Below are positions 45,715-50,026 of a stretch of 64,000 nucleotides of DNA, piece after piece; within the stretch, counting starts at the first letter, position 1, and each line of letters starts with the position of its first letter. The notes under the pieces were generated by a model. That model worked only from the letters and a program-made list of their open reading frames with translations, was not told where the DNA came from and searched no databases. The stretch comes from an uncultured bacterium (GTDB taxonomy: Bacteria; Cyanobacteriota; Vampirovibrionia; Gastranaerophilales; Gastranaerophilaceae). The DNA lies in contig CASERN010000011.1 in the NCBI GenBank assembly GCA_949290355.1, positions 124,001-188,000 of the forward strand. The letters run 5' to 3'. Position numbers and translations under genes: made by a program.

Positions 45715-47100
45715 ATGTTTACTAAAATAGCACAATTTTTTAAAGAGCCTCCGGTAAAAGAGACTATTAATGACAGTGAAAAAGTAAAAAGTATGTATGC
45801 TCATTGGCGTTTAAGAATTTTTTATGCTTGTTTTATTGGGTATACTGTATTTTATTTATGTAAGAAAAATATAGCTGTAGCTTTACCGGGATTGAGTGCT
45901 GAGTATGGATATTCAAATACGGAACTTGGATTATTAGGAAGTTCTTTGTATTTGACTTATGGTATTGGAAAATTTGTTAATGGAGTATTAGCAGATGGGT
46001 CTGATGTTCGTAAATTTTTGCCTACAGCATTAATTTTAACAGCTATTGCAAATATTTGTTTTGGGTTGTCTGCTGTATTTATTACTCCTGGACATGTTTC
46101 ATTTTTTGGATTGCCTACTAATACAATTTTGTTATGGTTATTTGTATTTTTCTGGGGTGCCAGCGGTTGGTTTCAGTCTGCCGGTTTCCCTGCAGTAGCA
46201 AAGAGCTTAACATATTGGTATTCAAATTCTGAAAGAGGTACAAAATGGTCGCTATGGTCTTGTTCTCATCAAGTAGGAACATTCTTAAGCGTAATAATTT
46301 CAGGATTCCTTGTCGCTCATTGGGGCTGGAAGATGGCATTTTTTGTACCGGGTAGTTTAGCTATTTTAGTTGCAATTTGGTTGTTTAACAGACTGAGAGA
46401 CAGACCTCAATCTTTAGGTTTGCCTGATATTGAAACATACAACAATGAGCCGTCTGCTAAAAAAGCTGATGTAGAAGAAGATAATAGAACTTATGTTGAG
46501 ATTTTTAAACAAAATATTTTATATAATAAGACAATTTGGCTTTTAGCGATTGCTTATATCTTTGTTTATATCATCAGATTTGGAGCAGAAGATTGGATGA
46601 TAAAATATTTAAGTGAAGCTAAACATAACTCACTTGAATTAGCTGCAATGAAACTTAGTTCTTTACCTTTAGTCGGTATTGCAGGTACTATATGTGCAGG
46701 TTTGATTTCTGATAAGATATTTAAAGGGAAAAGAGCTCCTGTTAATTTAATTTATTTGGCAGGTGTTGTAATTTGTTTGTTGTTATTGAGATTTAATACA
46801 ATAAGTAATATTGATTTTGTACTAATCGGACTTTTAGGAGCTTTTACTTATGGACCTCAAATGATGATTGGAGGACTATGTGCAGTAGAATCAAGCTCTA
46901 AAAAAGTTGCATCAGCAGCTACCGGATTTACAGGAACATTTGGATACATTGGAGCTGTGTTATCCGCTACAGGTACCGGTTTTATGGTAGATAAGTTCGG
47001 ATGGAACGGTGCTATTGTATTTTGGGTATTATCAGCATTAATATGTATATCAATATGTGTTGTATTGATGATTGATGAGAAAAAACGTAATCAGGCATAG
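45715..47100 (+). CDS. OPA-family MFS transporter (organophosphate:phosphate antiporter)
   Basis: 461 residues, about 12 membrane helices. The N-terminal YTVFYLCKKNIAVALPGL and YGIGKFVNGVLAD are typical of the GlpT/UhpT/UhpC group, which exchange phosphate for glycerol-3-phosphate or hexose phosphates. Starts 15 bases after the exonuclease gene with AAAGGATT. Exact substrate unknown. Confidence 0.88.
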   Translation: MFTKIAQFFKEPPVKETINDSEKVKSMYAHWRLRIFYACFIGYTVFYLCKKNIAVALPGLSAEYGYSNTELGLLGSSLYLTYGIGKFVNGVLADGSDVRKFLPTALILTAIANICFGLSAVFITPGHVSFFGLPTNTILLWLFVFFWGASGWFQSAGFPAVAKSLTYWYSNSERGTKWSLWSCSHQVGTFLSVIISGFLVAHWGWKMAFFVPGSLAILVAIWLFNRLRDRPQSLGLPDIETYNNEPSAKKADVEEDNRTYVEIFKQNILYNKTIWLLAIAYIFVYIIRFGAEDWMIKYLSEAKHNSLELAAMKLSSLPLVGIAGTICAGLISDKIFKGKRAPVNLIYLAGVVICLLLLRFNTISNIDFVLIGLLGAFTYGPQMMIGGLCAVESSSKKVASAATGFTGTFGYIGAVLSATGTGFMVDKFGWNGAIVFWVLSALICISICVVLMIDEKKRNQA

Positions 47101-47114
47101 AAAAGAAAATAAGT

Positions 47115-47150
47115 AAAAAAAATCATCTCATTATTGAGATGATTTTTTTT
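47115..47150. terminator. Bidirectional terminator
   Basis: Stem AAAAAAAATCATCTCA / TGAGATGATTTTTTTT with a 4-base loop, between the convergent transporter and histidine kinase genes. It covers the kinase stop codon. Confidence 0.9.
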
Positions 47151-48291
47151 GTGGAATTGTAAACCAAAAAGTACTTCCATAATGAAGTTTTGATTTAACA
47201 AAAATTTTCCCTCCATGTGCATTTAATATTTTTCTGCACAATGCAAGTCCTACTCCAGAGCCTTGTTGTCTTTTTAATTGGCTTCTGTTTACTTGAGTAA
47301 AGAAATTGAAAATTTTAGACATATCTTTTTTGCTAATTCCATCACCATTATCTTTTATTTCGAAAATGAATTCTTGTTTTCTGTTTAAATATGTAATTAT
47401 AGAAATTGAACTGTTTGTTTTACTGAATTTTAAAGCATTGGATATAAGATTATAGACTAGTTGTTTAAATCTTATTAAATCAGCACTTATTATAATGTCA
47501 GAAAGAGTATAGTTAAAAGTGATATTTTTTTCTTTTCTCATTTCATCAAAGCTCCAAATTATATCACTTATAACCTTTTTAGGACGAAATTTTTCGATTT
47601 TTAATTCCATTGGACTATATTCACTTCTTGCATAATCCAAAACATTTTTAATTAAATCCATCAAGTAAACAGAGCTTTGGGATATATTATTTAAATATTT
47701 TAAATTTTCTGTATCTTGATTTTTTTCAGCAAGTAAATCAGAAAAACCTATTATTGAATTAAGTGGTGTTTTAAATTCGTGTGATACACTTGCAAGAAAC
47801 TCCATTCTTTCTTTTATATTTTTCTTTCTTTCTTCGTATAATGAAATGATTTCTAATTTAGAAGATATATATTCCAGTAAGATATTTATAGTATTTATAT
47901 TTTTTTTATAAAAATTGCTGTCTGCACTAATTAACGCAATATATCCAAGTGTGTTGTTTTTATATATTATTGATTTTAAGATTTTATTTTTCTTAGAAGC
48001 ATAATCAAGAAATTCATTGATATCTTCTATTTCAAAATTTTTATATGAATCAAACATAATCTGTTTAATTTTTTTTATTTCAGAATTTAAAAATTTGTTT
48101 TCATCAAGCTTGTTCGATATTTTCAGTTTGTTTAGGTCAAGTTGATTATTATCAAAATTTACAAGTCCAATCCAGCTGGCATACGCATTTGTAATATCAA
48201 TAAAACATTCATTTGTGATATCTATAAGATCTTTATAGGATTTTGCAGAATTAATTTTTTTAACAAATTTATATATTGCTTTTTTGTTCAT
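47131..48291 (-). CDS. Soluble sensor histidine kinase
   Basis: 386 residues from the ATG at 48291. GAF-like sensor region about 10-155, HisKA domain with phospho-acceptor His in FLASVSHEFKTPLNS, and HATPase_c with N box LISNALKFSKT, G1 DNGDGI and G2 GSGVGLALC. No membrane segments and no adjacent response regulator, so it is an orphan kinase. The upstream extension to 48339 would run into gmk and is unlikely. Leaderless start. Confidence 0.88.
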   Translation of the reverse strand: MNKKAIYKFVKKINSAKSYKDLIDITNECFIDITNAYASWIGLVNFDNNQLDLNKLKISNKLDENKFLNSEIKKIKQIMFDSYKNFEIEDINEFLDYASKKNKILKSIIYKNNTLGYIALISADSNFYKKNINTINILLEYISSKLEIISLYEERKKNIKERMEFLASVSHEFKTPLNSIIGFSDLLAEKNQDTENLKYLNNISQSSVYLMDLIKNVLDYARSEYSPMELKIEKFRPKKVISDIIWSFDEMRKEKNITFNYTLSDIIISADLIRFKQLVYNLISNALKFSKTNSSISIITYLNRKQEFIFEIKDNGDGISKKDMSKIFNFFTQVNRSQLKRQQGSGVGLALCRKILNAHGGKIFVKSKLHYGSTFWFTIPQKKSSQ

Positions 48292-48305
48292 TGTATAATT
48301 ATAAT
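48292..48305. promoter_or_regulatory. 14-bp bidirectional leaderless promoter
   Basis: The entire gap between two divergent start codons. Plus strand: TATAAT at 48294-48299, six bases, then gmk ATG at 48306. Minus strand: TATAAT at 48303-48298, six bases, then the kinase ATG at 48291. The two -10 boxes overlap by two bases, so the genes may compete for polymerase. Neither start has a ribosome site. Confidence 0.65.
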
Positions 48306-48869
48306 ATGAACAAAAAATTATTTGTAGTATCAGGCTCATCAGGTGTTGGTAAAGGCACTGTATTAAAAGGTTTTTTGCAAAAAAATCCTGATTTTATGTT
48401 GTCTATATCTTGCACTACAAGATCCCCTCGAGAAGGTGAAATTGATGGTGTGAATTATTTTTTTATGACAAAAGAAGATTTTAAACAATGTATAGAAAAT
48501 AATAAATTTTTGGAATGGGCAGAATTTGCAGGAAATTTTTACGGTACAAAGAAAAAATTTATAAATAAATGCTTAGAAGAAGGAAAAAATATAATTCTAG
48601 AAATTGATACAAAAGGAGCTTTGCAGGTGAAAAAACAAATGCCTGAAGCAGTTTTGATTTTTATATGTCCTCCTTCATTAGAAGCTCTAGAAAAACGTTT
48701 GAGAGGTCGTCATACAGAAGATGAAGCTACTATTCAAAAACGTATGCAGGAAGTCAAAGAAGAATTACACCGTGCAGAAAATTTTGATTACAAAATTGTA
48801 AATGATGATTTAGACAGAACTATTTCTGAATTTGAAAACATAATAAAATTGGAGCTTGGAAGATGCTAA
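48306..48869 (+). CDS. gmk: Guanylate kinase
   Basis: Phosphorylates GMP to GDP. 187 residues from ATG 48306. P-loop GSSGVGKGT, GMP-binding SCTTRSPREGEIDGVNYFF, and RLRGRHTEDEATIQKR in the lid. It lacks the common N-terminal Met-rich extension. Overlaps coaBC by 7 bases: a gmk-coaBC-Nif3-like operon. gmk next to coaBC is a common pairing. Confidence 0.95.
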   Translation: MNKKLFVVSGSSGVGKGTVLKGFLQKNPDFMLSISCTTRSPREGEIDGVNYFFMTKEDFKQCIENNKFLEWAEFAGNFYGTKKKFINKCLEEGKNIILEIDTKGALQVKKQMPEAVLIFICPPSLEALEKRLRGRHTEDEATIQKRMQEVKEELHRAENFDYKIVNDDLDRTISEFENIIKLELGRC

Positions 48870-50026
48870 GCGGTAAGACTATACTTGTAGGAATAACAGG
48901 TGGTATTGCAGCTTATAAGATTTGTGAGCTTATAAGGATGTATAAACGAGCAAACGCAAATGTTTTAGTTGTTTGTACTCCTAATGCATTGAATTTTGTA
49001 ACGAAATTGACTTTGCAAAATTTGAGCCAGAATGAGGTTGCAGTAGAAGAGTTTGATGTAAAGGATTTTAAGCCGGAACATATATCATATGCTGATTCTG
49101 CAGATATTATGGTCATAGCTCCGGCTACAGTTAATACAATTTCAAAAATTGCGACAGGTGTATGTGATAATTTATTAACATCGATAGCTTGTGCTTTTAC
49201 AAAACCTGTTATAATAGCTCCTGCTATGAATTGTAATATGTGGAAAAATCCTATTTTTCAGGAAAATTTGCACAAACTTCATTATGAAATTATAGAACCC
49301 GAAAGCGGATTTTTGGCATGCGGATATGATGGTAAGGGGCGTTTGTGCAGTATTGATAAGATATTTGATAAAACAGTTGAGTTGTTAAATTATAAACCTC
49401 TAAGTGGTAAAAAAATTGTGATTACATCAGGCGGTACAATAGAAGATATTGATCCTGTAAGGTATATTTCAAATTATTCATCAGGCAAAATGGGTTTAGC
49501 TCTTGCCGATACTGCAAAAAATTTTGGAGCTGATGTTACATTAATTACGACAAAAGATGTTCAAAGAAGATACAATGTTGTAAAAGTTAAATCTGCAATT
49601 GATATGAAATCAGCTGTTGAAAAAGAATTTGATAATGCAGATTGTGTTATTATGGCGGCAGCTGTTGCTGATTATCGTGTCAAAGATATTGCTCCGCAGA
49701 AGATGAAAAAAACATCAGAAAATGAAATTACGCTTACTTTAGTAAAAAATCCTGATATTTTAAAGGAAATTTCGGCAATAAAAAAATCTCAAATAGTAGT
49801 AGGTTTTTGTGCTGAAAGTGAAAATTTGATTGAAAATGCAAAAGAAAAAATCTCTAAAAAAGGTTGTGATTTCTTAATTGCTAATGATATTTCAAGAAAA
49901 GATATAGGTTTTTCAAGTGATTATAACGAAGTTACAATTTTAGATAAAAACGGAAATATGACAAAAGTTGAAAGAGCTGACAAGTTAACTGTTGCTCGAA
50001 AGATTTTTGAGGCAATTTATGGATAA
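48863..50026 (+). CDS. coaBC: CoaBC (Dfp), phosphopantothenoylcysteine synthase/decarboxylase
   Basis: Bifunctional coenzyme A enzyme. 387 residues: an FMN-dependent decarboxylase (1-180; VGITGGIAAYKICELIR, APAMNCNMW) and a CoaB synthetase half (about 185-387; VITSGGTIEDIDPVRYISN, GKMGLALA, AAAVADYR, and KKGCDFLIAND). Second gene of the gmk operon, overlapping its neighbours on both sides. Confidence 0.95.
   Translation: MLSGKTILVGITGGIAAYKICELIRMYKRANANVLVVCTPNALNFVTKLTLQNLSQNEVAVEEFDVKDFKPEHISYADSADIMVIAPATVNTISKIATGVCDNLLTSIACAFTKPVIIAPAMNCNMWKNPIFQENLHKLHYEIIEPESGFLACGYDGKGRLCSIDKIFDKTVELLNYKPLSGKKIVITSGGTIEDIDPVRYISNYSSGKMGLALADTAKNFGADVTLITTKDVQRRYNVVKVKSAIDMKSAVEKEFDNADCVIMAAAVADYRVKDIAPQKMKKTSENEITLTLVKNPDILKEISAIKKSQIVVGFCAESENLIENAKEKISKKGCDFLIANDISRKDIGFSSDYNEVTILDKNGNMTKVERADKLTVARKIFEAIYG

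Follow-up and report, generated by a model that had tools for sequence, protein, structure and literature searches.

Bidirectional prokaryotic promoters, as described by Warman, Grainger and colleagues, carry overlapping -10 elements on opposite strands and produce divergent RNAs from one short sequence; they are defined by divergent starts 7-25 bp apart (PMC12825309, PMC10268837, citing Nat Microbiol 2021 6:746). The same work gives 18 bp as the commonest start spacing in E. coli, followed by 10 and 23 bp (PMC12825309, PMC10268837). Two polymerases cannot occupy both orientations simultaneously for steric reasons, and basal activity was too low for competition at all five bidirectional promoters tested in E. 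coli (PMC12825309). Leaderless (TA-led) genes are known from Actinobacteria and Deinococcus-Thermus (PMC3160421). Our literature search found no published report of leaderless genes for Melainabacteria, no work on transcription starts or transcript maps of Gastranaerophilales, and nothing matching divergent leaderless pairs with overlapping promoters.

In this study, a 64,000-nucleotide stretch of DNA, hereafter the window, was analyzed from a Gastranaerophilales (Melainabacteria) genome of 1.85 Mb in 14 contigs. A histidine kinase gene (47131-48291, - strand; 386 aa), whose product possesses HisKA and HATPase_c domains and an N-terminal part with no significant family match, lies head to head with the guanylate kinase gene gmk (48306-48869, + strand; 187 aa; TIGR03263, 245 bits). 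The end of gmk is overlapped by the start of coaBC (48863-50026, + strand; TIGR00521, 426 bits), presumed to be the second gene of the gmk operon. The kinase start codon (CAT at 48289-48291, read on the - strand) and the gmk ATG (48306-48308) are separated only by the 14 nt TGTATAATTATAAT (48292-48305), a putative shared bidirectional core promoter, and the sequence across the site reads ...TTTTTTGTTCAT TGTATAATTATAAT ATGAACAAAAAA.... On each strand a TATAAT box is followed by exactly 6 nt and the ATG, in full agreement with the first-pass annotation, which had also described the two boxes as overlapping. The gmk box occupies 48294-48299 on the + strand with its spacer at 48300-48305, and the kinase box occupies 48298-48303 on the - strand with its spacer at 48297-48292. 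Both share 2 bp, 48298-48299, within the core TATAATTATA, and the merged boxes stay full consensus because the AT that closes TATAAT can double as the AT that opens its reverse complement, ATTATA. An inverted repeat of 38 bp (48280-48317), absent from the first-pass annotation, with two 19-nt arms that are 89% complementary, comprises this -10 palindrome and the first codons of both genes; it is partly due to the fact that the kinase and gmk proteins both begin with MNKK.

From the box-to-ATG spacing, the transcription start of the kinase gene is predicted at the A of its ATG (48291, - strand) and that of gmk at the A of its own (48306, + strand), the latter also in view of a genome-wide TATAAT peak at -12, so that the two divergent starts would lie 15 bp apart. 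This distance falls within the 7-25 bp of the described bidirectional promoters, and the locus also resembles them in its -10 boxes overlapping on opposite strands, a 2-bp overlap that is kept in 49 relatives. It differs from them in that the spacing is 15 rather than 18, 10 or 23 bp, both boxes are perfect consensus, each of the two predicted RNAs is the leaderless mRNA of a conserved gene, and the arrangement is conserved across many species. Like the TA-led genes (PMC3160421), kinase and gmk possess a TANNNT about 10-12 bp before the start codon and no Shine-Dalgarno (SD) motif, but unlike them they stand head to head with merged -10 boxes. Unlike a sigma-70 promoter with a -35 element, neither -10 box has a TTGACA-like hexamer 16-18 bp upstream, and the best match at spacings of 15-19 nt reaches 3/6 on either side; the -35 regions that had been placed inside the neighbor's coding sequence are therefore not recognizable. 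No -35 consensus is visible among the leaderless-type promoters of this genome. A consensus promoter and terminator scan listed no promoter at the gap, because that scan requires a -35. Judged by its sequence, the promoter is well explained as a bidirectional promoter of the known type, and it would be new in being merged, leaderless on both sides and of 15-bp start spacing.

A total of 51 distinct kinase-gmk loci were compared after removal of duplicates. The gap is exactly 14 nt in 49 of them, 17 in one and 19 in one; the latter two are related loci and show that the pair does not depend strictly on a 14-nt gap. The letters are kept as well as the length, a point that the first-pass annotation had proposed to check. 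Columns 1-8, 11, 12 and 14 (11/14) are invariant over the 49 loci, and the gmk-side box is thus invariant wherever it is linked to the kinase. Variation is confined to column 13, which falls outside both boxes, and to columns 9 (T/C) and 10 (A/G), which are the fourth and third positions of the kinase-side box and give rise to the variants TACAAT, TATGAT and TACGAT. The third and fourth positions are the tolerant ones of a -10 element. On a tree built from the kinase and gmk proteins, the gap columns average 0.71 parsimony changes, compared to 16.4 for 25 fourfold-degenerate sites in gmk from these genomes. The reading frames of both genes are conserved, as are both boxes, and the putative promoter is kept nearly unchanged in dozens of species while identity between relatives falls to 41% for the kinases (61% for gmk). 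Of 146 genomes in the order, 33 contain the locus pattern, all of them members of one family, with 0 matches for the reversed-pattern control; a broader pattern, CATNNTATAATTATANNATG, was found in 48/288 family genomes, and the same pattern reversed in none. The kinase-gmk arrangement is conserved in about ten genera.

The conservation also bears on where translation begins. An in-frame ATG upstream is absent in 43/49 relatives for gmk and 29/49 for the kinase, which makes starts inside the neighboring gene unlikely, consistent with the start codons assumed in the first-pass annotation. Two alternative upstream starts, a kinase ATG at 48339 and a gmk TTG at 48276, were considered and rejected; they are not conserved as ATG and lack SD motifs.

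Leaderless initiation was evaluated in a 464-kb genome sample, composed of the window and 20 other 20-kb stretches. Of the 373 long ORFs, 22 have a TATAAT beginning at -12 and 8 have one beginning at -13, while the background is about 2 per position; together these are 30/373 ORFs versus 7/1497 internal ATGs (p about 1e-15). Genes with a box 11-13 nt before the ATG have no SD motif (0/33), compared to 156/312 of the others (p about 6e-10). The motif was scored as GGAG, GAGG or AGGA. No 16S rRNA gene, from which the anti-SD could be read, was found in the assembly (estimated completeness 99.96%). At the kinase-gmk gap the -10 box would put +1 at the start codon with a 6-nt spacing on both sides, and SD motifs are found in 0/49 relatives on the kinase side and the gmk side alike. 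The TATAAT peak at -12/-13 and the missing SD motifs lend support to the leaderless reading of both genes that had been proposed, and the clade-wide signal, directly observable in the sequences, indicates that leaderless transcription is probably widespread in Gastranaerophilales.

Upstream regions of this genome are 76% AT, so that TATAAT-like words are common, which counts against a promoter reading. The chance of TATAATTATA at a fixed place is 5.5e-5 under a first-order model of the upstream sequence of this genome, and the kinase-gmk pair is the only one with overlapping start-adjacent -10 boxes among 77 divergent pairs in the genome sample. A second near-match, CATAGTATAATTGTAACATG, is present in the same genome at the start of a RarA/MgsA-like ATPase gene (L036 1501-1520; G000:C11:113534-113553), where the far side opens merely an 8-aa ORF.

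Lineages in which the pair has split serve as natural controls. Kinase-gmk linkage changes about 11 times on the gmk tree, and the two genes are no longer neighbors in genomes G008, G015, G019, G024 and G030, being located on different contigs in G024. The separated kinase still has a TATAAT close to its ATG, at a distance of 6-7 nt in three of these genomes and 9 nt in two, and gmk retains its own box. Genes inserted between kinase and gmk were found at loci L206, L189 and L196, and are pilin-like or of other kinds in those intervals that were readable; in G008 and G015 (loci L206 and L189) a pilin-like gene lies there together with a small ORF of 71 aa. The insertions end the shared promoter, and each of the old genes keeps a TATAAT near its ATG. 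Among gmk genes of Gastranaerophilales without an adjacent kinase, TATAAT is present at -12/-13 in 35/53 loci, and those without it are mostly the most distant gmk genes. The box stands at -13 in 16 of these 35 unlinked loci versus 0/50 linked ones, counts that are uncorrected for genome kinship; this difference fits the idea that sharing the promoter constrains the spacing.

Taken from sequence evidence, it is very likely that the 14 bp constitute a minimal bidirectional promoter for two leaderless transcripts. The housekeeping sigma factor would read the TATAAT of the + strand, the DNA would open, and gmk(-coaBC) RNA would start from the A of the gmk ATG. A holoenzyme of the same kind, turned round, would read the TATAAT of the - strand and begin the kinase RNA at the A of its ATG. 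Neither mRNA would have a leader, and translation would begin at the 5'-terminal AUG without an SD motif. Only one polymerase could be bound at once, because each would sit over the box and the start used by the other; mutual blocking, as proposed in the first-pass annotation, is thus expected sterically and is plausible, although actual competition would depend on how strong the promoters are. The architecture of the gap and its conservation are observed directly, and from them we infer the start sites, the identity of sigma, the mutual exclusion and any regulatory effect. A further proposal is that the promoter acts as a two-way switch, in which polymerase orientation alone sets the trade-off between gmk-coaBC and the kinase, and in which selection kept the boxes fused at the 15-bp start spacing for coupling, in a clade where the design arose at other gene pairs; we regard this as rather unlikely. 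The locus would be a clear example from nature of how short a practical promoter for two genes can be: both -10 boxes match the consensus in full, both starts would be leaderless, and no room is left over. It may also allow polymerase competition to be studied at a bidirectional promoter that has no -35 boxes, leaders or regulator sites.

Three other readings were weighed. The gmk direction might alone be a real promoter, gmk being a housekeeping gene whose box is invariant while the kinase-side box gathers changes; the kinase-side TATAAT would then simply reflect the AT-rich palindrome, and the kinase would be expressed by other means or hardly at all. However, the changes in the kinase-side box are found only at tolerated positions, its first two and last positions and its spacing to the ATG are invariant, and a kinase apart from gmk carries its own TATAAT 6-9 nt before the ATG, which leaves this reading improbable. 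Secondly, the palindrome might be an operator through which a dimeric regulator, e.g. the kinase's response regulator, controls both genes, with the TATAAT match being secondary. The core TATAATTATA is indeed a perfect palindrome, and the 38-bp inverted repeat is present in the host genome. Nevertheless, changes at columns 9, 10 and 13 break the dyad in many relatives and are uncompensated in the other half, and the coding arms of the repeat differ between genera, where the palindrome is not kept. Neither a dyad conserved beyond the -10 boxes nor compensating changes were thus found. Moreover, gmk loci without the kinase retain one TATAAT at -12/-13 rather than the palindrome, and a one-sided TATAAT at -12 is found at many unrelated genes; an operator is very improbable. 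It is equally improbable that the AT-rich words are translation signals, i.e. a ribosome-binding element of non-SD type in the place of an SD, with transcription starting upstream inside the neighbor: TATAAT at -12 to -7 is close to the SD place and the genes that have it there lack SD, but the word is the exact sigma-70-type -10 consensus, its variation is confined to positions tolerated in a -10 element, and ordinary SD motifs precede half of the other genes.

The geometry of such gaps was inferred from the consensus by setting two TATAAT boxes each 6 nt from its own ATG. At a gap of 12 the boxes abut without overlap, and at gaps of 13, 15 and 16 they conflict. A gap of 14 gives a perfect fit in which they overlap by 2 bp, as does one of 22, and a gap of 17 needs one relaxed position. 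Since two abutting boxes need only 12 bp, the description of the site in the first-pass annotation as about the minimum possible divergent promoter holds in the sense of near-minimal, not as a strict minimum. Gaps of 14, 22 and 17 place the start sites 15, 23 and 18 bp apart, the last two distances being among the common ones in E. coli. The gap-17 layout had 85 matches in 146 genomes (forward column hand-counted) versus 32 in the reversed control, and the gap-22 layout 39 versus 6; the clade therefore seems to use more than one merged layout, though many of the gap-17 and gap-22 matches have a real gene on a single side only. Gap-22 sites of the form CAT N6 ATTATAAT N6 ATG, divergent and conserved, recur in several genera of the family, and the one in genus g25, for example, is a perfect palindrome, CATATTTGTATTATAATACAAATATG.

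The 14-bp TATAATTATA layout recurs in other genera of the family, at other gene pairs in which a real ORF stands on either side. These pairs, the named genes being identified by sequence reading, are a recombinase and a small ORF (L058 and L159; gap GCTATAATTATAGC, a perfect palindrome), a DHH-type phosphoesterase-like gene and a 109-aa ORF (L154), two long ORFs (L155), and a RarA-like ATPase and a solute-binding-like lipoprotein (L158).

Two minor observations concern the genes around the promoter. At one kinase-gmk locus (L017, genome G005) gmk stops after 16 aa while the remainder of the gene is intact, which is probably a sequencing or assembly error. Downstream of the kinase, a terminator-like hairpin scored on the - strand (window 47115-47150) is flanked by the convergent ends of an MFS transporter gene (ending at 47100, + strand) and the kinase gene (ending at 47131, - strand). 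The A/T runs on either side of the hairpin suggest that it could serve both convergent genes.
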